Part shown: positions 7,735-55,348 of the stretch, in pieces | Layout: each line of letters starts with the position of its first letter | Numbering within the stretch: the stretch's first letter is position 1 | Assembly: GCA_001443005.1 (NCBI GenBank) | Contig: LEKQ01000007.1 | Span: 62,001-126,000, forward strand | DNA from: a bacterium GBS-1 | GTDB lineage: Bacteria; Synergistota; GBS-1 | Length of the DNA: 64,000 bases | Direction: 5' to 3' | Notes under the pieces: model-generated | Database searches by the model: none | What the model was told of the DNA's origin: nothing | What the model saw: only the letters and a program-made list of their open reading frames with translations | Position numbers and translations under genes: made by a program

Positions 7735-8311
7735 GCTAGTTCCAGAGCTCGAGTGGATTAAGGATAATGGGCTAAGGGAGAAGGTAATATCTACATGGGT
7801 TGAGGCCTTAAGGAGGGGTGGATGGGAGCCCGAAGACATGCTAAATCTCCCATTTACGCTTCTTCTGGGAGATAGCCCTTCGAGCTTTTTGGAGCATATC
7901 AGAGCTGTAGTTCGTATGACAAAGCACGCTATAGATGTGATAAGGGAGATCTATAGGGATAGGGTCGAACTCAATGAGGATTATCTTATGGCAGGCGCTC
8001 TTCTTCATGATGTGGGTAAGCTTATGGAGTATGAGCTTAAGGATGGAAGATACGTTCAAACCAAGATAGGAGGGACGCTAAGGCACCCCTTCATTGGGGC
8101 TGCCTTAGCTTATTTAAATGGTCTACCCTCTGAGATAGTTCACATAATTGCCTTTCATTCCCATGAAGGGGATCATATTAATAGATCTTTAGAAGCGATG
8201 ATAGTTAATAAAGTTGATCTTCTGAACTTTGAATTATTCAAGGCTAAGGGAGAGGTGACCTCCGCTGGGCAAAACCGTAGTGGAAAAGATAGCGTCAAGC
8301 AAGCTTGGTAG
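7703..8311 (+). CDS. HD-domain metal-dependent phosphohydrolase
   Basis: The protein has about 200 residues with HD-superfamily metal ligands: an upstream His in TKHAIDVI, then LLHDVGKL, HPFIGAALA and the HIIAFHSHEGD histidines. The substrate is unknown; nucleotide or phosphoester hydrolysis is the family norm. The start could be GTG 7703 or GTG 7715. Both overlap the redoxin gene, and 7715 lies at a poorer spacing from GAGGAG (7695). The last 47 bases overlap the leuC-like gene if that gene starts at CTG 8265. The C-terminal tail beyond about residue 185 is not conserved-looking. Confidence 0.8.
   Translation: MLLKVREKLLRLVPELEWIKDNGLREKVISTWVEALRRGGWEPEDMLNLPFTLLLGDSPSSFLEHIRAVVRMTKHAIDVIREIYRDRVELNEDYLMAGALLHDVGKLMEYELKDGRYVQTKIGGTLRHPFIGAALAYLNGLPSEIVHIIAFHSHEGDHINRSLEAMIVNKVDLLNFELFKAKGEVTSAGQNRSGKDSVKQAW
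8253..8267 (+). promoter_or_regulatory. SD and CTG start of leuC1
   Basis: AGGTGA (8253-8258) sits 6 bases before CTG 8265. Translation from CTG gives LGKTVVEKIA, matching MGMTFAEKIL at the start of the paralogue at 10055, and makes the two proteins 421 and 420 residues long. A TGA at 8256-8258 closes the frame just upstream. The only standard alternative is GTG 8280, which has no SD and removes the conserved start. Confidence 0.7.
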
Positions 8312-9530
8312 GGAGGTTAAAGCTGGGGAAAGGGTCTGGTTGCCCCTTGATCTCGTAGTAATAAGGGATTTCGCTGGGCCTAACGCTATACTTCAATTTG
8401 AGGAGATAACAAAGGGTAGAGGAAAGGTATTTGACCCTGAGAGGATAGCCATAACCTTTGATTATCAGGTCCCTGCTAAGGATGAGAAGGTTGCGAATAA
8501 TCAGAAGATATGTAGGGAGTTCGCTGAGCGCCAAGGTATAAAGCACTTCTTTGATGTTAACGCTGGTATAGGTCAGCATGTTCTCCTCGAAAGAGGCTTA
8601 GTTACACCAGGAAGCGTGATAATAGGAACTGATAGTCATATGAACTTATTAGGAGCCGTTGAGTCGTTTTCCGTGGGGGTGGGAAACACGGATGTCGTTG
8701 CGGGCTTCATTCTCGGCAAGCTTTGGTTTAGGATTCCTCAAAGCGTAAAGATGGTGTTTAACGGCAGGCTCAGCTATCCAGTTACCTCTAAAGATTTGGC
8801 TCTCTTCTTTGTAAGCGAGATGGGAGGGGATGGTGCTAACTACCTCTCCGTTGAGTTTTACGGTGAAGTTATAGATAGCTTTTCACTCGCTGATAGGATA
8901 ACCTTATCGAGCATGGTTACGGAAACGAGCGGTAAGATCGGGTTTATGGTTCCTAATGATGAGGTTAAGGCTTTCCTTGAGGAGAGGGTAGGAAAGAGCG
9001 TTGAGATTATAGAAGCTGATCCTGATGCAGAATATCTTGAGATAAGGGAGTATGATGTAAGCGGCCTTGAGCCGCTTATATCATGTCCTCACGTTCCGGA
9101 GAACGTTAAAAAGGTTAGGGATTTGAGAGGGGTTAAGGTGGATGAAGTGTTTATAGGATCTTGCACTAACGGCAGGTATGAGGACTTTAAAGTGGCTTAC
9201 GACTATCTTTTGAGGGTGGGTAAGGGGTTCAATCCTCGTGTGCGAGTTATATTCACCCCATCGACGAAGGAGGTTGCCTTAAGACTTCTTAGGGAGGGTA
9301 TAGCTAGCGCTTTCGTTGAAGCAGGAGGGGTTTTCACCAATCCGGGATGCAGCTTGTGTACCATCGGTCACCACGGGATATTGGCCTCTGGAGAGGTTCT
9401 CTTAAGCACCTCCAACAGGAACTTTCAAGGGAAGCTTGGGAGGGGTTCCTATGTCTACCTTTCTAGCCCATTGACCGCTATCGCTTCTGCAATTACCGGA
9501 GAGATCACAGATCCGAGGGATCTGCTTTAG
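8265..9530 (+). CDS. LeuC-like aconitase-family large subunit, divergent paralogue 1
   Basis: The 421-residue protein (from CTG) has the fold of the large subunit of 3-isopropylmalate dehydratase or homoaconitase. The three [4Fe-4S] cysteines are present in GSCTNGR and NPGCSLCT, and IIGTDSH is recognisable. Several active-site positions differ from canonical enzymes and from the paralogue at 10055. Arg34 replaces His of the xHDG/N motif (IRDFAG), Tyr67 replaces His of DHxxP (FDYQVP), and GQH (103-105) replaces CHQ. It is paired with its own small subunit 13 bases downstream. The substrate is therefore unlikely to be assigned safely as isopropylmalate. No leuA or leuB is nearby. Confidence 0.85.
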   Translation: MGKTVVEKIASSKLGREVKAGERVWLPLDLVVIRDFAGPNAILQFEEITKGRGKVFDPERIAITFDYQVPAKDEKVANNQKICREFAERQGIKHFFDVNAGIGQHVLLERGLVTPGSVIIGTDSHMNLLGAVESFSVGVGNTDVVAGFILGKLWFRIPQSVKMVFNGRLSYPVTSKDLALFFVSEMGGDGANYLSVEFYGEVIDSFSLADRITLSSMVTETSGKIGFMVPNDEVKAFLEERVGKSVEIIEADPDAEYLEIREYDVSGLEPLISCPHVPENVKKVRDLRGVKVDEVFIGSCTNGRYEDFKVAYDYLLRVGKGFNPRVRVIFTPSTKEVALRLLREGIASAFVEAGGVFTNPGCSLCTIGHHGILASGEVLLSTSNRNFQGKLGRGSYVYLSSPLTAIASAITGEITDPRDLL

Positions 9531-30165: not shown

Positions 30166-32409
30166 CTAAACAGCTCCTTTCCTTATCTTTTCCGCGCATA
30201 TCAAAAGCTGCCCCACAGCTATACCCTGATCGTTTGTTGGAACTTCTTTATGATGATAGACCATGAGCCCTCTTTTAGTCAAGCTTTCAACAGTTTTGTG
30301 AAGAATTATTTGGTTTTGGAATACTCCACCGCTTAAGACGACCTTTTCGATATGGGTTTTCCCTCTTATGATTTCTACCGCTTCAGAGATGCTATTGACA
30401 ATGTAGTTGTGGAATTTCATAGAGCATATCTCAACTGGTGTCCCTCGCATGACATCCTTTACGAGCTCCTCCCACATTCTTTTCCAATCTATTATTATCT
30501 CCCCTTTTTCCTCCCGGAGTTCTGCAGGATAAGCGCTCTTTTCATCTTCATTTGCTACACCCTCAAGCTCTATCGCTGCCTGGGCTTCGTAGGATATACT
30601 TTTTCTTATTCCTAGGAATGCGGAGACGGCGTCAAAAAGCCTCCCACACCCCGAAGATAGTGGAGAGTTTATCCCAAGCTTTAGCATCCTCAGTATCTCC
30701 TTAGCCTTTTCCTCAATAATTAAATCTTCCTTACCTATCTCTCTTAGGTAAGCTAAGGCGATTCTCCAGGGCTCCCTTATCGCTTTTTCTCCCCCGGGCA
30801 AGGGAATCGGCCTTAAATGAGCCACTCTTTTGAATTCAAGATAGTCTCCTATAAATATCTCTCCTCCCCATATGGTTTCGTCTATACCATATCCGGTTCC
30901 ATCGAGCACGATTCCTATGACCTTATCGCTTATGCCATTTTCCCACATGCAACTCGTCATATGAGCGTGGTGATGCTGGACTTTTAGGATAGGTAAGCCG
31001 GTTGCCTCCGCATATCTCGTTGAAAGGTAAAGGGGGTGAAGGTCGCAAACCACGTGTCTGGGGTTTAAGCTGAAAAGGCTTTTGAATCTCTCTATAAGGA
31101 GCTCATATCTTTCTAAGGTCTCTAGATCCTTTAGGTCTCCTATATATTGGCTTAAGATGATGGTATTTTTCCTGCTTAAGGCGAAAGAGGATTTCTCTTC
31201 TCCTCCGCAAGCGAGTATCTCTGGGAACTCTTCTTCTCCAACCAAAGGCAAAGGGGTATACCCTCGCGCTCTCCTTGTAACCATACCGTTGATAACTATA
31301 GAGTCATCGCAAGGAGTATATATCTCTCTGTTATGAATCAGGAAGAAGTCAGCTATGTTTTTAAGCTTTAGGAGAGCCTGCTCATTTTCGTAGATTATCG
31401 GTTCGTCTGAGAGGTTACCGCTTGTCATCACAAGCGCCTGGAAAGGCTCGGTTATTAGGTAGTGTAAGGGGGTATAGGGTAACATAAAGCCAACATATTT
31501 GTTATTGGGGGCTATGTTCTCGGGAAGGTTAGAGCTCTCTCTCTTTCTTAAAAGAACTATTGGCCTTATAGGGCTTAGAAGGAGTTCCCTTTCACCTTGA
31601 TTAACCTTAGCGAATTGACTGATTCTGTCTATGTTAAATGCCATAAGTGCGAAGGGCTTATGTGGTCTATTTTTCCTTCTTCTAAGCTCATTTATAGCCC
31701 TTTCGTTTAAGGCATCTACCGCTAAGTGGAAACCGCCAATACCCTTTATAGCAACTATCTTCCCCTCTTTAAGGAGTTTTATCGTTTTTTCTATGGGGTC
31801 TCCGTCGATCTTATTTCCGCGGTTATCAAGTAGTCTTAACTCGGGGCCGCATTCAGGGCAGGCATTTGGCTGAGCATGAAACCTCCTATCGTTGATATCG
31901 TTGTACTCCTTCTCGCATCTTTCGCACATCTTAAAGATCTTCATCGTAGTTTTTTCCCTATCGTAGGGAAGGTCAAGTATTATAGTGAAGCGAGGACCGC
32001 AATTCGTACAATTTGTGAAGGGGTAGCGATATCTCCTATCTTTATCGTTGAAGATCTCTTTTAAGCAGTCATCACATGTTCCAACATCAGGAGGAATCCA
32101 GAGGTTATCCCTGGCAGAATTCGCCTTTTTTTCGCTTTTGAGTATAATGAAAGAAGGTTTCTCCCCTTCATAATTTTCTTCTCTAACCTTTTCTATCTTT
32201 ACCACTCTTGAGAGAGGAGGTGGAGAAAGCTTAAGGTTGCTTATAAAAGCGTTGATTTCTTTCTCTTCGCCGATTAACCTTATCTCTACGCACTCACTTG
32301 TGTTTTTAACCCATCCTCCTATAGAGAGGGAATTGGCGAGCTTCGACACGTAAGGTCTGAAGCCTACCCCCTGAACTACGCCATATACCTTTAGTTCTAC
32401 GCTTTTCAT
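30166..32409 (-). CDS. hypF: HypF, carbamoyltransferase of hydrogenase maturation
   Basis: The 747-residue protein has an N-terminal acylphosphatase domain (YGVVQGVGFRPYVSKLA), two zinc fingers (CDDCLKEIF...CTNCGPRF; CERCEKEY...CPECGP), a YrdC-like domain (KIVAIKGIGGFHLAVDA, TSGNLSDEP) and a Kae1-like domain (VQHHHAHMTSCMWE, VLDGTGYG, LSGGVFQNQ). It makes the HypE thiocarbamate from carbamoyl phosphate. The ATG overlaps the psuG stop by 4 bases. HypA, HypB and any hydrogenase structural gene must lie elsewhere. Confidence 0.97.
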   Translation of the reverse strand: MKSVELKVYGVVQGVGFRPYVSKLANSLSIGGWVKNTSECVEIRLIGEEKEINAFISNLKLSPPPLSRVVKIEKVREENYEGEKPSFIILKSEKKANSARDNLWIPPDVGTCDDCLKEIFNDKDRRYRYPFTNCTNCGPRFTIILDLPYDREKTTMKIFKMCERCEKEYNDINDRRFHAQPNACPECGPELRLLDNRGNKIDGDPIEKTIKLLKEGKIVAIKGIGGFHLAVDALNERAINELRRRKNRPHKPFALMAFNIDRISQFAKVNQGERELLLSPIRPIVLLRKRESSNLPENIAPNNKYVGFMLPYTPLHYLITEPFQALVMTSGNLSDEPIIYENEQALLKLKNIADFFLIHNREIYTPCDDSIVINGMVTRRARGYTPLPLVGEEEFPEILACGGEEKSSFALSRKNTIILSQYIGDLKDLETLERYELLIERFKSLFSLNPRHVVCDLHPLYLSTRYAEATGLPILKVQHHHAHMTSCMWENGISDKVIGIVLDGTGYGIDETIWGGEIFIGDYLEFKRVAHLRPIPLPGGEKAIREPWRIALAYLREIGKEDLIIEEKAKEILRMLKLGINSPLSSGCGRLFDAVSAFLGIRKSISYEAQAAIELEGVANEDEKSAYPAELREEKGEIIIDWKRMWEELVKDVMRGTPVEICSMKFHNYIVNSISEAVEIIRGKTHIEKVVLSGGVFQNQIILHKTVESLTKRGLMVYHHKEVPTNDQGIAVGQLLICAEKIRKGAV

Positions 32410-33308
32410 CTTTCCTCTTTAATCTTTATCGCTATTTTAGCAGCCAAGGCTGCGTTAGATAGGATTATGCTTGCATTGGCTTCGACGCTTTTGCCCTTGC
32501 TTATTTGGGCAAGCTTGCCCAAAAGATATGGAGTTAAGGCCTTTCCCTTTATGTTAAGCTTTCTCGCTTCGTCGATTGCTTCCTTCAAGAGAGGCTCGAA
32601 TTCGCTTTTGTTCCATGATTCCTTTGGAGGAGGATTGGTGACGAGAACGCTCTTATTTATACCTAGCAGCTTAACCATTTTATATATCTGAGCTATCTCT
32701 CCTGGAGAGTCAACGCTGACGTCAAGCTTTACGCCACTGTTTCTGAAGTAGAAGGCAGGAAGCTCATCTGTTTTATAACCCACGACAATGACTCCCAAGG
32801 TTTCGAGTAGCTCAAGGGTCGCTTCGAGGTTAAGGATCGCCTTTGGGCCTGAGCATACAACGATACCTGGACCTTCTGCCAATACCGTTATATCATTGGA
32901 TATATCAAGGCTTTGATCTATATTCCTGTGAACACCACCTATGCCACCAGTTGCAAGGACTTCTATTCCAACCTTTCTTGCGCACCACAGCGTTCCACCA
33001 CTCGTTAAGGCACCGTTTTCCCTTCGAGCTATAGCGACTGGAATATCTCTTACCCCGGCCTTAGGGGTGTTTTTCCTGTTTCCCAAGATCTGGATCTCCT
33101 CTTCTGTGAGGCCGACCTTTATATTACCCTTTATTATAGCTATAGTTGCTGGTATGGCTCCATGCTCTCTTATCACTTTCTCTGCGAGGAGCGCGATTTC
33201 CACGTTTCGCGGATAGGGGAAACCGTGCGCTATGAGATTAGATTCTAAAGCTACTACTGCTTCCCCAGATTCTAACGCGCTTCTAACTTCATCCTTTATT
33301 TCCCAGAT
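32406..33308 (-). CDS. psuG: Pseudouridine-5'-phosphate glycosidase, starting at AUC
   Basis: The enzyme splits pseudouridine 5'-phosphate into uracil and ribose 5-phosphate. Family motifs are GAIPATIAIIKG, ALTSGGTLWCARKVGIEV, ATGGIGGVHRNIDQSLDIS, GYKTDELPAFYFRNS and KGKALTPYLLGKLAQI. The conserved N-terminus (VALES, IAHGFPYPRN) lies upstream of GTG 33203 in the same frame. That frame opens after TAA at about 33335 and contains no ATG, GTG or TTG before GTG 33203. AUC 33308-33306 sits 7 bases after GGGAGGTGA and gives the normal 300 residues. PsuK is not adjacent. It leads the hyp-nfn transcript, an unexpected placement. Confidence 0.85.
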   Translation of the reverse strand: MWEIKDEVRSALESGEAVVALESNLIAHGFPYPRNVEIALLAEKVIREHGAIPATIAIIKGNIKVGLTEEEIQILGNRKNTPKAGVRDIPVAIARRENGALTSGGTLWCARKVGIEVLATGGIGGVHRNIDQSLDISNDITVLAEGPGIVVCSGPKAILNLEATLELLETLGVIVVGYKTDELPAFYFRNSGVKLDVSVDSPGEIAQIYKMVKLLGINKSVLVTNPPPKESWNKSEFEPLLKEAIDEARKLNIKGKALTPYLLGKLAQISKGKSVEANASIILSNAALAAKIAIKIKEER

Positions 33309-38077: not shown

Positions 38078-38935
38078 TTGGGGGTGGAGTACGCACCTTC
38101 TCCGGTTAAGCTTTTTATAGGCGTGCTTTATAAGGAAAGGGAGAACTTAGAGTCAATAAGAGATACTCTTATAGCTGAGTTTGGCATCATAGATTACGAG
38201 AGTGAGGAGATAGAGTTTAAGTGGACGAACTACTATGAGGATGAGCTAGGTTTTCCCTTAAAGAGGGTCTTTTTATCCTTTTCTCCGCTCGTCTCTCCAG
38301 ATCAGATAGTAGAGATAAAAAGGATTACTAACAGGATAGAGGGGGAAAAAAGGAAAGTGAACCTTGACCCAGGCTATATAGAAGGGGGAAAGTTAGTCCT
38401 AGCCACAACTAAGGATCAGGCCCATAGGATATACTTAGGGAAGGGAATTTATGCTGAAGTCACCTTGAGGTTTAGGGATGGGCATTTTATCCCCTTCGAT
38501 TATACTTATCCCGATTACAGAAGCGAGGAATATCACGCTATATTCAGTAAGATAAGGAGCAAGTATCTTGAGGAAGTTAGGGGGAGATTTCCCCCCACGG
38601 CTAAGCTCACTACGAGGTGGGCGCTAAAGAGCATATTTGAGAGCTTTAGTGGGTTGAGGGCTCTCGTGGTTTTTAAGGAGAAAAGAGATATAATAGATAT
38701 AGTTAGATCGTTGGTTAAGGTCAAGGAGGGTTGTGGGGTTTTGGCCCTTGCCGTTAAGGGAGCGAGGGGGGAAGCGGAGGCGCTTTCGCATATAGATGTC
38801 GTTGACTACGTTTTCCCCTTTAAGGGGGCTTTAGGTGAGGTCGTTGCCTTTCTGAAGCCCGATTTGTTATTTTTGAGTGAAGATATAGATTTGAAGGAGA
38901 TAGGCTTTTACGAAGGGAGGGTTGTAAGATTATAA
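38078..38935 (+). CDS. DUF4416 protein with a C-terminal extension
   Basis: The 285-residue protein matches the DUF4416 pattern over about residues 8-175: PVKLFIGVLY, the YYEDELGFPLKRVFLSF segment, NLDPGYIEGGKLVLATTKDQAHRIYL, YAEVTLRF and FDYTYPDYRS. The extra 110 residues (about 176-285) look like an alpha/beta domain (LRALVVFKEKRDIIDIVRSL, PDLLFLSEDID) that I do not recognise. Function unknown. TTG 38078 or GTG 38084 starts are possible with AAGGGGGG upstream. Its last 7 bases contain the proposed AUU start of purB. Confidence 0.75.
   Translation: MGVEYAPSPVKLFIGVLYKERENLESIRDTLIAEFGIIDYESEEIEFKWTNYYEDELGFPLKRVFLSFSPLVSPDQIVEIKRITNRIEGEKRKVNLDPGYIEGGKLVLATTKDQAHRIYLGKGIYAEVTLRFRDGHFIPFDYTYPDYRSEEYHAIFSKIRSKYLEEVRGRFPPTAKLTTRWALKSIFESFSGLRALVVFKEKRDIIDIVRSLVKVKEGCGVLALAVKGARGEAEALSHIDVVDYVFPFKGALGEVVAFLKPDLLFLSEDIDLKEIGFYEGRVVRL
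38915..38931 (+). promoter_or_regulatory. SD and AUU start of purB
   Basis: GGGAGG (38915-38920), 8 bases, then ATT (38929-38931), inside the end of the upstream gene. From ATT the protein begins (M)IKRYFLPEMERIW, matching the MIxRYxxPEMxxIW family opening. ATG 38956 removes nine of these residues and has no SD. Confidence 0.8.
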
Positions 38936-40236
38936 AAAGATATTTTCTCCCAGAGATGGAAAGGATATGGTCTGAAGAAAATAAGTTCAGTAAATGGCTT
39001 GAGATAGAGCTTCTCGTCGTAGAAGGGTGGGCGAAGATAGGCGTTTTTCCAAGCGATATTCCAGAGAGGATGAGAGAGCGAGCTTCCTTCAATGTAAAGC
39101 GCATAGAGGAGCTCGAGGAGCTTTACAAGCATGATGTCATAGCCTTTATTAAATGCGTTGAGGAGAGCATAGGGGAAGAGCTTTCCCCATATCTTCACTA
39201 TGGACTAACCTCCTCCGATGTTATAGATACTGCGAACGCTTTGCTTTTAAGGGAAGCTCTCCATCAGATAAAGCTTAAGGCTGAAGATTTAGGGGGGGTT
39301 CTTTTTGAAAAAGCTTTAGAGTTCAAATACACGCTTCAGGTGGGTAGGACTCATGGGGTTCATGCTGAGCCCATAACCTTTGGGTTAAAGTTCTTGGGCT
39401 TTTATAGTGAGCTTTTAAGAAATATTAGGAGGCTTGAGCTCGCTGAGGAGGAGATATCCTATGGTAAGATTAGGGGTGCGGTTGGAACTTACTCCATGCT
39501 TGATCCTCGTGTGGAGGAGTACGTTTGTAGTTCGCTGGGGCTCAAGGTGGAGCCTGTTTCTACTCAGGTAATCCCTCGAGACAGATATGCCTTCTTATCA
39601 TCGGTATTAGCGCTTTTTGGCGCTTTCTGTGAGAGGGTTGCCCTTGAGATAAGACACCTTCAGAGAACCGAGGTTGGAGAGGCCTACGAGCCTTTCTATG
39701 AAGGGCAGAGGGGATCTTCAGCGATGCCTCATAAGAGGAATCCTGTATCCTGTGAGAGAATATGTGGGCTTGCTCGCTTTTTAAGGGGCTTTTTGTCTCC
39801 TTCTTTCGAGAATATCGCCCTGTGGCATGAGAGAGACATATCTCATTCATCCTTTGAGAGGTTTTCCCTACCTCAAACTACGAGCGTATTGTTTTATATG
39901 ATAAACCTACTTAAAAGGATAGTTGAGGACCTTGAGGTTCATCCTGAGAAGATGAGAGAGAATCTTAACTTGACGAAGGGGTTAATTTTCTCAAGTGAGG
40001 TCTTAACGAAGCTTCTTTCGAAGGGGGTCCCCAGGGATAAAGCCTATGACCTAGTTCAGAGGGTCTCTAAGCTTTCTTGGAAGGAGGGGAAGGAGTTTAA
40101 AGAAGCTCTGCTTAGTGATCCAGAGGTGAGCTCCCTTTTGACCCATGATGATCTTGAGGAATGTTTTAATCTTGAGAACCTTCTTAATAAAGTCAATATT
40201 ATCTTCTCGAGGTTTAAGGAGATGCATTTAGCATGA
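38929..40236 (+). CDS. purB: Adenylosuccinate lyase, starting at AUU
   Basis: The 435-residue fumarase/aspartase-superfamily enzyme acts twice in AMP synthesis, releasing fumarate from SAICAR and adenylosuccinate. Motifs include HYGLTSSDVIDTANALLLREA, VGRTHGVHAEPITFGLK, the signature loop GSSAMPHKRNPVSCERI with the catalytic Ser, and WHERDISHSS. AUU 38929 gives the conserved N-terminus and a length close to B. subtilis PurB (431). It overlaps the upstream stop (TAA 38933) by 7 bases, so initiation is probably by coupled or SD-directed reinitiation. No other pur gene is in view. Confidence 0.93.
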   Translation: MIKRYFLPEMERIWSEENKFSKWLEIELLVVEGWAKIGVFPSDIPERMRERASFNVKRIEELEELYKHDVIAFIKCVEESIGEELSPYLHYGLTSSDVIDTANALLLREALHQIKLKAEDLGGVLFEKALEFKYTLQVGRTHGVHAEPITFGLKFLGFYSELLRNIRRLELAEEEISYGKIRGAVGTYSMLDPRVEEYVCSSLGLKVEPVSTQVIPRDRYAFLSSVLALFGAFCERVALEIRHLQRTEVGEAYEPFYEGQRGSSAMPHKRNPVSCERICGLARFLRGFLSPSFENIALWHERDISHSSFERFSLPQTTSVLFYMINLLKRIVEDLEVHPEKMRENLNLTKGLIFSSEVLTKLLSKGVPRDKAYDLVQRVSKLSWKEGKEFKEALLSDPEVSSLLTHDDLEECFNLENLLNKVNIIFSRFKEMHLA

Positions 40237-50913: not shown

Positions 50914-52197
50914 CTATATAGCTACTTCTTCCCATCCATAGCTGTAATACTTTCTCTCTGATCTCAGGAAGATAGATGGCATTGGAACGACAACTATACC
51001 ACTTTCGTCTAGGTAAAATCGTTTTGAATCGGCCTCAGGGTCGTAGCCTATTACGGTTCCCGGTGGTATATATACGTTTGAGTCCACTATCACCCTTTTA
51101 AGCTTGCATTTTTCACCTATTATTGCCATCTTACCTATTATGCACTCCTCAACGATGGCTCCTGGGTTGATTATGCAGTTTCTTCCGAGAACCGACCTTA
51201 TTACCGTTGCTCCTAATATTCTGCTTCCTTCAGCTTGTAGAGTTTCTAAAACGAGTGGTTTGTATCCATCTGCGGGGTATATGTAGGCTGGAGGGTCTCC
51301 GTAGCTCACCGTTCTTATTGGCCACTGGGAGTTATAAAGATTTAAATCTGGATTGGGATTAAGAATGTCCATATGGGCTGTCCAATAGGATTGTATTGTT
51401 CCCACATCTCTCCAGTAAGGGCGGTCGTTTCCGGGAAGCTTATTGGTTGTGAAGTCGTAAGCGAACACCTTGTATTTCTTATAAGCCTTTGGGAATATAT
51501 CCTTACCGAAGTCATGAGAGCTTGAGGGGTCATGAGCATCCTCAAGAAGTAGCTCTTCTATAACTTCCCGCTCAAATATATAGTTTCCCATAGAGGCTAA
51601 GCAGAACCCTTCTTTATTGGGTATCTCAGGGGGGTCTGGAACCTTTTCGAAAAATCCTATGACCCTATTCTTTTCGTCCACTTGAATGACGCCGAACGAT
51701 TTAGCCTCTTCCTTTGGGACAACGGTAGCACATATGGTGATGTCTGCCCCCTTCTTAAGGTGAAACTCAAGGAACTGTCTTATATCTATCTTGTAGACAT
51801 GGTCTGCAGCGAGTATTATTATCCTGTCCGCATCGAAGGTAGTTATTAGATGAATGTTCTGATATATGGCGTCAGCTGTTCCCTTATACCAGTGCTCTCC
51901 AGTCCACATCTGAGGTGGTACCGTCGTTATAAATATATCTCTGTCTCGAAGTGCTCCTCCTAGTTGCCATCCTCTTAATATATGTTCGTTAAGTGACTGG
52001 CTCTTAAATTGAACCAATACATATATTGAAAAGAAGCCCGAGTTCACCAAATTGGATAGAGCGAAGTCCACGATTCTATACTTGGCTGCGAAGAATACAG
52101 CGGGCTTCGTCCTATATCTAGTCAAAGGATAGAGCCTTGTTCCTTTCCCACCGGCTAAAACCATGGCCAAAACCCTTCCATAGTCCCCGTATATCAA
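50914..52197 (-). CDS. glgC: Glucose-1-phosphate adenylyltransferase
   Basis: The 427-residue enzyme makes ADP-glucose from ATP and glucose 1-phosphate. It contains AMVLAGGKGTRLYPLTRYRTKPAVFFAAKYRIVDFALSN, YKGTADAIYQNIHLI, SMGNYIFERE and a left-handed beta-helix C-terminus (GRNCIINPGAIVEECIIG). It starts at TTG 52197, overlapping the glgA stop (TTGA), so translation is coupled. Confidence 0.96.
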   Translation of the reverse strand: MIYGDYGRVLAMVLAGGKGTRLYPLTRYRTKPAVFFAAKYRIVDFALSNLVNSGFFSIYVLVQFKSQSLNEHILRGWQLGGALRDRDIFITTVPPQMWTGEHWYKGTADAIYQNIHLITTFDADRIIILAADHVYKIDIRQFLEFHLKKGADITICATVVPKEEAKSFGVIQVDEKNRVIGFFEKVPDPPEIPNKEGFCLASMGNYIFEREVIEELLLEDAHDPSSSHDFGKDIFPKAYKKYKVFAYDFTTNKLPGNDRPYWRDVGTIQSYWTAHMDILNPNPDLNLYNSQWPIRTVSYGDPPAYIYPADGYKPLVLETLQAEGSRILGATVIRSVLGRNCIINPGAIVEECIIGKMAIIGEKCKLKRVIVDSNVYIPPGTVIGYDPEADSKRFYLDESGIVVVPMPSIFLRSERKYYSYGWEEVAI

Positions 52198-53654
52198 GGG
52201 TTAATCCCTCCTCCTAAAATCTTCTCATAAACCTTCAAGTATAAATCTATCCTACTTTCCCAAGAGAAATCTAATGCCATCGCTCTCTTTATGGCTTCTT
52301 TGAAAGCCTCCTGTTTGTTCTTGTAAAGCTCTATGGCTCTTCTAATGGATTGCAAAAGCTCCTCAGAGCTATAGCCCTTGAAGAGGAATCCCCAGCCTCC
52401 ATCGCTTATATCCTTTATGGTATCTTTAAGACCTCCCGTGCTCCTCGCTATGGGGAGTGTTCCATACCTTAAGGCTATCATCTGAGATATACCACAAGGC
52501 TCAAATAGAGATGGCATGAGAAGGAAGTCAGACCCTGCGTAGACCCTTCTTGATAGAGGCTCATCAAAGCGATCTATGAAGCGGTAAGAAGATGGGAATT
52601 TCCCTTCCATGGTTTTCAACGTGGATGTTATCTTTGGGTCTCCACTTCCAAGTATTACAAGCTGGCACCCCAGGCTTAATATCTCCGGTATTATGGGTAT
52701 GAGTATGTCGAAGCCCTTCTGCGAGACTATCCTTGAGATCATGCTTATAAGCGGCTTTCTGATATCCCTTTCGAGGGAAAGCTCCTGAATTAACCGCTCC
52801 TTGCATTTCTCTTTACCCTCGAGGTTATCGCGAGAATATCTAAAGGGTATCTCTTCATCCTTGGATGGATCCCATCTCTCTTGATCTATGCCGTTCGTTA
52901 TACCAAAAAGCTTATGCTTATTAGCTCTGACTACACCGTCAAGGCCAAATCCCAGTTCCGCTTCCTGTATTTCTTCTGCATAGGAGGTACTCACGGTTAT
53001 CAATGCGTCTGAGAGTTGGATCCCACCTTTAAGGAGGTTGACCTTTCCCCAGTACTCAAGGTAGTTTATGCTAAAGCTCTCAGAGGAGAGATGCCATCTT
53101 TCTATCACATCGGTCTCGTAGATTCCCTGATGAGCTATGTTATGTATAGAGAGGACGATAGGAGGAAGTTTAATGTTTCTATAGAACTTGTGGAATCTAC
53201 CGAAGATGGGCACGAAGCAGGTAGCCCAGTCGTGAATGTGAATTATGTCAGGTTCCCAGGCTAATAGCTTTCTTCTTAAGCTTTCTATGCATCCTAAGCA
53301 GAAGAGAGGGAAAGTTATATCATAAAGAGGATTTCCTCGTTCGGGATAGGGTGGGCTTTTCTCAATATCTTCTCCTTCTATTAGGTATATCTTAAGTCTT
53401 TCCTCCCAAGATAACTCATAAATAGAGAGCTTATAGCATTTCCATTCTAGGGGTACGCAGAAATCCTGGATCCTTCTCACGGAAAGGCCGTTTCTCCTTA
53501 TGTTTTCGCTAGCTAGTTCATTTAAAGGGGTAATCACTATAGCATCTGCTTTTCCCTCTTTTATCAAGGCCTTGGGTAGCTCCAGTGCCACGTCACCAAG
53601 GCCACCGACTTTATTCAATGGATGGACCTCAGGCGAAATATGTAATATCTTTAT
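52194..53654 (-). CDS. glgA: Glycogen synthase (GT5), starting at AUA
   Basis: Transfers glucose from ADP-glucose to the non-reducing end of a glucan. AUA 53654-53652 gives (M)KILHISPEVHPLNKVGGLGDV, the conserved GlgA N-terminus including the ADP-glucose-binding KxGGL, and 486 residues, a normal length. TTG 53618 is the first standard start but leaves only two residues before that Lys. Other motifs: HIHDWATCFVPI, SIHNIAHQGIY, ITNGIDQERWDP, PSLFEPCGISQMIALRYGTLPIARSTGGLKDT. AUA overlaps the upstream branching-enzyme stop as ATAA, echoing the ATGA overlaps elsewhere. Confidence 0.94.
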   Translation of the reverse strand: MKILHISPEVHPLNKVGGLGDVALELPKALIKEGKADAIVITPLNELASENIRRNGLSVRRIQDFCVPLEWKCYKLSIYELSWEERLKIYLIEGEDIEKSPPYPERGNPLYDITFPLFCLGCIESLRRKLLAWEPDIIHIHDWATCFVPIFGRFHKFYRNIKLPPIVLSIHNIAHQGIYETDVIERWHLSSESFSINYLEYWGKVNLLKGGIQLSDALITVSTSYAEEIQEAELGFGLDGVVRANKHKLFGITNGIDQERWDPSKDEEIPFRYSRDNLEGKEKCKERLIQELSLERDIRKPLISMISRIVSQKGFDILIPIIPEILSLGCQLVILGSGDPKITSTLKTMEGKFPSSYRFIDRFDEPLSRRVYAGSDFLLMPSLFEPCGISQMIALRYGTLPIARSTGGLKDTIKDISDGGWGFLFKGYSSEELLQSIRRAIELYKNKQEAFKEAIKRAMALDFSWESRIDLYLKVYEKILGGGINP

Positions 53655-55348
53655 CGAGGCTTTGGTCTCCAGAGCCTGTGGTCCACCTCCTGGAATACGT
53701 TATCATCCTGGATGATACATTCGATCTCCCTTAAATCTTGACTTGAGGGAGTTAATCCCGAATCTATGGATTTGGCTAATTCATAAGCTTTGATGAACAA
53801 CCTATAGTGCCTTTCAAACCTTTGTTCCGCGTAGTCTCTAGCCTGCCATGTGGTGTAAAGAAACTCCCAATCTGAAGATTCAAGTAAGAGAAGCTCAATG
53901 CCAGCTTGCTTTAGGATCGCGTAGTGTAATTCGTTTTTGGGTTCCATTATCGATAGCTCATGAACCATCTTATCCTCACATTCATATATCTTTTCCCACA
54001 TCCATTTGGTTTCGTTGTTAAACCATATCCTGTGGTCTCCCCCCGCTCCCCAGGATCCCTCCCAAAGGTGAGTTATATCTATCCTCTCATAAGCCTTAAG
54101 AAGGTCTCTTCCAAGAGCCGAGGTTATTAAGCTTGAGGAGCCTATTAAGCTGAAGACCTCCTTTAACCAATGGATCCCTTCGTGCCACCAGTGCCCGAAG
54201 AGTTCCGCATCGAAAACCTCGGCGAATAGGGGAGTGAAGTTGAATTTTGAGCAGATCTTTTCGGTCCTCTCCTCGAGCATATTGACAAAGGTCTTGGCAT
54301 GCTCTCTTACAGCCTCCATGGCCTTATCTGGATCGTAATACTCCTTTGCATCTAGTCCAAGCTTTCTATCAGTGACTCTCCAGAACCTGTGTCCTCCGGG
54401 GAAGGCTCGCTTATGGAATTCAAGATACCTTCCATTTCCAGGAAAGCCCATATCTCGACTCCATACCCTTGAAGTGCCTATGGGATCCCTTATGAAAAAG
54501 ATTATTCCGTTTTCCTTACCTGGAGATACACAATAATAGGGCTTTAAAGAGACAACTTCCCTAATATGATCCTGATCTTCCGCTATTTCTTCCCTTTCTC
54601 CCCATACTCTATTGCCATAGGGGTACTCTAAGGATCCAACCTTCTTCTGCCCCGTCAAGAGATGATGGTCAGTGTAAGAGAAGCTTATACCATTTTCATT
54701 GAGGATCATCTCAAGTCCCTTTCTAAGATAGGGTTCGCCTCCTAAGGGGGGAGTCCATTCATAAGAGGCTCTATAAGCGCATTCAGGTAGCCAGAACCCC
54801 TTTATCTTTATTCCCTTGAAGTGGCGATTTGAAACCGATAGACCAACCTTCACTTGGGTTTCCACACACTCGTCGAACCTCAATAACGGGAGATAGCCGT
54901 GTGTAGCGGAGCACGAAAGAACCTCTATGAATCCATCTTCCGCAAAGGATCTAAAGGCTCCTACTAGGTCTCCACCGATGCTGTTTAGGAAGCTCATCCT
55001 CCTATTGTATAGATTTATCCAGTGTTTGGCCAAGCTGGAGCGTATTGGATCTTTGCTTCTATATTCCTTTTCTTCCTTACAAGCGTATCTTATCTGATCT
55101 TCTATGTAGCCTTCGAGCTTCTTGAGAAACTTGGGTGAAGATATCTGCTCAAGGAGTATAGGGGTTAGATTGATCGTTATCTTTAAGGGATAGTTCAGAT
55201 TTTTAATCTCGGATATTAGTTCCAGCAGAGGAATATAGGTTTCCCATGTGGTCTCCTCTAGCCAAACCTCACCATGTGGCCATGTTCCATGATTTAATAC
55301 GTAGGGTACATGGCCATGTAAAACTAGATGAAAATAACCTTTTTTCAT
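53651..55348 (-). CDS. GH57 glycogen branching enzyme
   Basis: The 565-residue protein has GH57 region 1 as LHGHVPYV, the nucleophile Glu189 in GFWLPECAYRASYEW, and the acid/base Asp380 in EVFDAELFGHWWHEG, the set diagnostic for GH57 1,4-alpha-glucan branching enzymes (Thermus and Thermotoga type). LWEGSWGAGGDHRIWFN in the C-terminal region adds support. It creates alpha-1,6 branches in the glucan made by GlgA. ATG 55348 has AAGGAGGGAAAGC. Confidence 0.92.
   Translation of the reverse strand: MKKGYFHLVLHGHVPYVLNHGTWPHGEVWLEETTWETYIPLLELISEIKNLNYPLKITINLTPILLEQISSPKFLKKLEGYIEDQIRYACKEEKEYRSKDPIRSSLAKHWINLYNRRMSFLNSIGGDLVGAFRSFAEDGFIEVLSCSATHGYLPLLRFDECVETQVKVGLSVSNRHFKGIKIKGFWLPECAYRASYEWTPPLGGEPYLRKGLEMILNENGISFSYTDHHLLTGQKKVGSLEYPYGNRVWGEREEIAEDQDHIREVVSLKPYYCVSPGKENGIIFFIRDPIGTSRVWSRDMGFPGNGRYLEFHKRAFPGGHRFWRVTDRKLGLDAKEYYDPDKAMEAVREHAKTFVNMLEERTEKICSKFNFTPLFAEVFDAELFGHWWHEGIHWLKEVFSLIGSSSLITSALGRDLLKAYERIDITHLWEGSWGAGGDHRIWFNNETKWMWEKIYECEDKMVHELSIMEPKNELHYAILKQAGIELLLLESSDWEFLYTTWQARDYAEQRFERHYRLFIKAYELAKSIDSGLTPSSQDLREIECIIQDDNVFQEVDHRLWRPKPR
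53652..53670 (-). promoter_or_regulatory. Coupled stop/start (ATAA) and SD of glgA
   Basis: The UAA of the branching enzyme (53653-53651) overlaps AUA (53654-53652). GGAGA (53670-53666) lies 11 bases upstream of AUA, a rather long spacing, so coupling to upstream translation is likely. Confidence 0.65.

Follow-up and report, generated by a model that had tools for sequence, protein, structure and literature searches.

A probable CUG start for glgA within the 3' end of the branching-enzyme gene, and apparent use of rare start codons in core genes of a Synergistota family

The window, a 64,000-nucleotide stretch of one contig of the Synergistota bacterium GBS-1, carries on its minus strand a glycogen synthase gene, glgA, between a branching-enzyme gene and a glgC-like gene. 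The genes and the sites around the glgA start are as follows (SD, Shine-Dalgarno sequence; G002 and G003 are two genomes of the same family).

50914 to 52197, minus strand: glgC-like gene, downstream of glgA, with a TTG start within a TTGA overlap on the glgA stop
52194 to 53672, minus strand: glgA, glycogen synthase (GT5), from the proposed CTG to stop TGA; TIGR02095, 471 bits; PF08323
53616 to 53618, minus strand: TTG, first canonical in-frame start, rejected as the main start; TTA in G002, CTA in G003
53652 to 53654, minus strand: ATA, proposed earlier as the start and now read as an internal codon (Ile 7); conserved in G002 and G003, with a weak SD
53670 to 53672, minus strand: CTG, proposed start and first codon of METKASIKILHISPEV..., based on the aligned codons of relatives and an SD score of 22
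53684 to 53691, minus strand: SD AGGAGGTG, 8 bases, perfect, within the branching-enzyme coding sequence, with GGAGG as the core at a spacing of 13 nt from the CTG
53651 to 55348, minus strand: GH57/BE_C branching-enzyme gene, upstream of glgA, overlapping it by 22 bases if the start is the CTG

GlgA matches TIGR02095 from end to end, with residues 1 to 479 on profile positions 1 to 477 and a score of 471 bits (cut-off, 328.45). The minus-strand frame with KILHISPEV and KVGGL that the original prediction had begun at the ATA is confirmed. From there the frame reads (I)KILHISPEVHPLNKVGGLGDV, the next codons being AAG ATA TTA CAT (KILHISPEV...KVGGL), and in alignment with bacterial glycogen synthases of solved structure the ATA falls at residue 1, which made AUA a reasonable choice from a single sequence. 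The upstream in-frame stop sits 15 codons before the ATA, and there is no ATG, GTG, or TTG between this stop and TTG 53618. The latter is indeed the first standard start, as had been noted, and a protein begun there keeps just Met-Asn ahead of the conserved Lys and loses beta strand 1; without the first 12 residues counted from the ATA, the TIGR02095 score is 453.5 bits. No canonical start codon yields the full conserved GlgA domain. The earlier claim of a non-standard start therefore holds, and it is strengthened by the relatives.

We searched 61 genomes for GlgA. In two other family members, G002 and G003, glgA lies behind the branching-enzyme gene, and within the family the comparison of glgA start sites covers just these two and the window genome (G000). 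The three genomes represent three genera or species, and GlgA identity to the window is 61% in G002 and 63% in G003. In a gap-free alignment, the window reads CTG-GAG-ACC-AAA-GCC-TCG-ATA-AAG, G002 reads CTG-GAG-AAA-GAA-GAA-GTA-ATA-AGA, and G003 reads TTG-GAA-ACC-CAA-AGA-GCA-ATA-GAA. The codon exactly six before the ATA, and in frame with it, is thus CTG in the window (53672-53670), CTG in G002, and a standard TTG in G003. In G002, an in-frame TAA lies two codons ahead of the CTG and excludes any earlier glgA start. Outside the family, the ATA position is internal in 24 of 27 loci, with the likely start about 5 to 10 codons upstream (e.g., G011, ATG-GGC-CTC-AAA-AAT-TCC-ATC), and is itself the likely start only in G047, G023, and G034. 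The original prediction had ended the gene at 53670, which is not the ATA (53654) but the last base of the in-frame CTG, a codon it had not considered; the agreement is perhaps an accident.

Family member G001, which is 96% complete, gave no full GlgA match in the 61-genome search, a distant glycosyltransferase (E 1.1e-5) being its only hit. The glg operon of G001 may have been lost or may be unassembled. A wider contig scan for more glgA relatives returned nothing beyond the G003 locus and one unrelated glycosyltransferase.

SD strength was scored by simple pairing to the 16S tail, GGATCACCTCCTTT; the tail of the window genome contains CACCTCC. CTG 53672 scores 22 at a spacing of 13, TTG 53618 scores 13 (GAGGT, spacing 8), and the ATA scores 11. 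Internal codons of the window genome have a median score of 8, a 75th percentile of 11, and a 95th percentile of 15; 0.17% of them reach 20, and fewer than 0.2% reach the 22 of the CTG. The aligned NTG codons score 22 in the window, 22 in G002, and 16 in G003, with the SD 13 nt before the codon in all three, and the counterparts at the same place are GAGGGGGTGG in G002 and GGGGTGG in G003. Strong SDs at starts in the window genome exceed background 8.6-fold at spacing 13 and 41- to 56-fold at spacings 7, 9, and 10. Compared with the peak at 7 to 10, a spacing of 13 is therefore usable, at the edge of the range and not ideal.

Both the SD and the NTG lie in branching-enzyme codons (Glu-Val and Leu/Phe-Trp), and this constraint accounts for part of their conservation. 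The TG of the glgA NTG is the beginning of the branching-enzyme Trp codon (TGG), and the first base of the glgA start is a branching-enzyme wobble base (CTC, CTC, and TTT in the window, G002, and G003). In the two genomes with Leu, silent changes to ATG or GTG at the glgA start are possible, yet they are absent.

In the RNA from 53622 to 53712 (minus strand), GGUGGACC of the SD region can pair with a downstream GGUCCAU (z -2.06), and such a fold could couple glgA to branching-enzyme translation. The hairpin is not conserved, z being about -0.1 in both G002 and G003. A regulatory hairpin hiding the glgA SD, suggested by the value in the window and not seen in the two relatives, was rejected. 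No Rfam family matches the glgA start region.

Based on sequence, conservation, and SD statistics, from which we infer initiation, yield, and coupling, it is likely that glgA starts at CUG 53672-53670. The 8-base SD AGGAGGUG, located in the last part of the branching-enzyme coding sequence, would place the 30S subunit at this CUG. The most likely mechanism is SD-led initiation in which the initiator fMet-tRNA would pair with the second and third positions of the codon and tolerate a first-base mismatch, as it does on GUG and UUG. The predicted N-terminus is fMet-Glu-Thr-Lys-Ala-Ser-Ile-Lys-Ile-Leu-His. The weak codon and the 22-base overlap would probably limit the yield of GlgA and make it depend on translation of the branching-enzyme gene. 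Two published observations count against a CUG start. Wild-type initiator tRNA starts poorly on CUG in Escherichia coli, and the first base pair is loose in structures (PMC11497404). The SD-led CUG of Caulobacter dnaA forms a complex in vitro and is silent in vivo (PMC8443254). The spacing of 13 nt, the branching-enzyme constraint on the SD and NTG, and the normal-looking initiator tRNA and IF3 of the window genome also weigh against it.

The original prediction instead made AUA 53654 the start. Ribosomes finishing the branching-enzyme gene would then reinitiate within the AUAA overlap, and the N-terminus would be (M)KILHISPEVHPLNK. The codon aligns with residue 1 of solved GlgA, and ATA 53654-53652 does overlap the stop TAA (53653-53651), as had been described. 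The upstream stop is overlapped in this way in all three family genomes (ATAA in the window, ATAA in G002, ATAG in G003), and four-base overlaps favor reinitiation (PMC10666635). However, the overlap is not special: genome-wide, 65 in-frame four-base overlaps precede the first canonical start of the following gene, and of these 22 are TTAA, 11 are ATAG, and 9 are ATAA. Such overlaps are common by chance, and the ATAA is therefore no sign of a start. The window does contain 6 ATGA and 4 TTGA overlaps, but the likeness that had been drawn between these and the ATAA does not follow. The SDs of the ATA are GGAG, GGAG, and GGA in the window, G002, and G003 (scores of 11, 11, and 8), none of them extended, whereas the AUA starts of Staphylococcus aureus depend on extended SDs. 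Comparison of the codon in related genomes finds ATA in all three family members, with ATG there only in the distant G047 and G023, but the protein fold calls for this Ile of beta strand 1 in any case. In G003, with its canonical TTG upstream, AUA is not needed. With these weak SDs, chance-level overlaps, and CTG, CTG, and TTG six codons upstream, AUA is not supported as the start. Because AUA starts exist elsewhere, those of S. aureus having extended SDs and roughly 10% of the efficiency of AUG (PMC13009471), we retain it as an improbable rival. It is easy to mistake an AUA that overlaps a stop codon for a start.

Initiation at TTG 53618, which would give a protein without the first beta strand, i.e., without KILHISPEVHPL, is more improbable still. 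This TTG is canonical, its SD is GAGGT at spacing 8 (score of 13), and it is the choice of gene finders limited to ATG, GTG, and TTG. Nevertheless, TTA stands in its place in G002 and CTA in G003; the residues that it would cut are conserved throughout the phylum and in proteins of known structure, and the profile score drops by 17.5 bits. Fusion of GlgA to the branching enzyme by ribosomal frameshifting is hardly credible: the two frames overlap and both enzymes belong to one pathway, but by eye the overlap holds no slippery sequence common to the three genomes, the hairpin is unconserved, and an SD plus NTG is present instead.

The CUG start that we favor for glgA may be one case of a lineage habit. 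We surveyed the window genome, stitched to 1.81 Mb, less 72 kb of contig C1, for genes of at least 150 amino acids without an SD-supported canonical start (325 genes), and counted the codons behind strong SDs further upstream. CTG is the most enriched codon, with 7 cases against an expected 0.95 (Poisson p 6e-5, uncorrected for the 61 codons). In the same survey of G002 (597 kb), CTG is again first (3 versus 0.30 expected), and glgA was recovered unprompted. Among the seven CTG genes of the window genome are hisB, map, polX, a moeA-like gene, and a leuC-like gene (window 8265). The glgA gene of the window is absent from this set because its TTG 53618 narrowly clears the SD threshold. As classes, ATT, ATC, and ATA show no significant enrichment, so claims of starts at these codons rest on individual genes. 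UUG is common in the window genome: crude gene calling puts it at 441 of the 1601 leftmost starts. For HisB, the leuC-like protein, Map, QueA, UvrC, PurB, PolX, MoeA, and PsuG, family profiles match residues encoded ahead of the first canonical start. The candidate rare starts located individually are the following.

8265 to 9530, plus strand: leuC-like gene (aconitase family large subunit), CTG 8265-8267, SD GAGGTGA at 8252-8258
32406 to 33308, minus strand: psuG-like gene (PF04227), ATC 33308-33306, SD AGGGAGGTGA at 33326-33317
38929 to 40236, plus strand: purB, ATT 38929-38931, SD AGGGAGG at 38914-38920; TIGR00928 from residue 1
C1:98519, minus strand, outside the window: hisB, CTG
C1:120280, minus strand, outside the window: polX, CTG
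C1:250745, minus strand, outside the window: map, CTG
C7:8856, plus strand, outside the window: queA, ATT
C14:89183, minus strand, outside the window: uvrC, CTG or ATT

The start codons of orthologues served as the out-of-family control. The hisB codon is CTG in all four family genomes (G000, G001, G002, and G003), with an SD spacing of 10, and the hisB start is ATG or GTG in 26 of 26 outside relatives read. CTG is likewise found at polX in 4/4 family genomes, with in-frame stops close upstream; the polX codon in G010 is ATG. Codons at other genes vary within the family: map has CTG, CTG, and TTG in G000, G001, and G002; the leuC-like gene has CTG, CTG, and GTG in G000, G002, and G001; and queA has ATT, ATT, and ATA in G000, G002, and G003. 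Both purB (ATT) and psuG (ATC) keep codon and SD in G002, and the first canonical start of psuG is 35 codons inside. These sequence comparisons suggest that several core genes of the lineage start at CUG or at one of a few other rare codons. The habit would consist of SD-led CUG, and more rarely AUU, AUC, or AUA, starts in conserved genes (hisB, polX, map, the leuC-like and moeA-like genes, queA, uvrC, purB, and psuG), with codons that swap with UUG and GUG between genera.

At C7:157621 (plus strand, outside the window), a frame opens with ACG right after an in-frame TAA, behind AAAGGGGGAGGG, and the TAA-ACG and SD-like run are also present in G002; an ACG start is possible for this gene. The IF3 gene, infC (C1 around 545829-546083, minus strand, L144), has an ATT 8 nt behind a GGAGG and an ATG 2 nt behind the same GGAGG, and it probably starts at the ATT. 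The infC gene of E. coli likewise starts at AUU.

An altered initiator tRNA or a missing IF3 was considered as the source of relaxed starts and rejected: the initiator tRNA of the window genome looks normal, with three G-C pairs and C1-A72, and IF3 is complete. We judge the chances to be evenly balanced that core genes of the family regularly use CUG as a fourth NUG start maintained by selection (with AUU and AUC occasional), start-codon discrimination being relaxed by another component of initiation, IF3 and initiator tRNA being apparently normal. If this is true, annotated N-termini in genomes of the family are systematically wrong; gene finders limited to ATG, GTG, and TTG would truncate GlgA by 18 residues, PolX by 67, and PsuG by 35. 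The CUG codons of hisB and polX in 4/4 family genomes are natural test cases for initiation on a codon that is poor in E. coli. The conserved CUG/AUU/AUC pattern in the family is a more valuable result than the glgA start alone. Our literature search found no paper joining Synergistetes with CUG starts.

The window glgA shares with canonical glgA of the E. coli and Agrobacterium type (PDB 2qzs and 1rzu) a full-length GT5 enzyme with a K-x-G-G motif. In contrast to these, it would add six N-terminal residues including the start, a CUG start, and a 22-base overlap with the branching-enzyme gene. Unusual start codons are reported for Deinococcus deserti (Baudet et al. 2010, Mol Cell Proteomics 9:415). 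There too, several rare-start genes were reportedly overlooked by gene finders. Starts in D. deserti reportedly come from proteomics, whereas those of the window lineage come from comparative genomics only, with conserved CUG in hisB and polX. The AUU and AUA starts of S. aureus (cvfC1, ccpN, citZ, and infC; PMC13009471) and the AUU starts of E. coli infC and pcnB resemble the proposed glgA start in having a non-canonical codon, a strong SD, conservation among relatives, and probably a lower yield. They differ in that the window glgA would use CUG, within an overlapping upstream gene, and in that the window lineage appears to repeat CUG in metabolic and DNA-repair genes.
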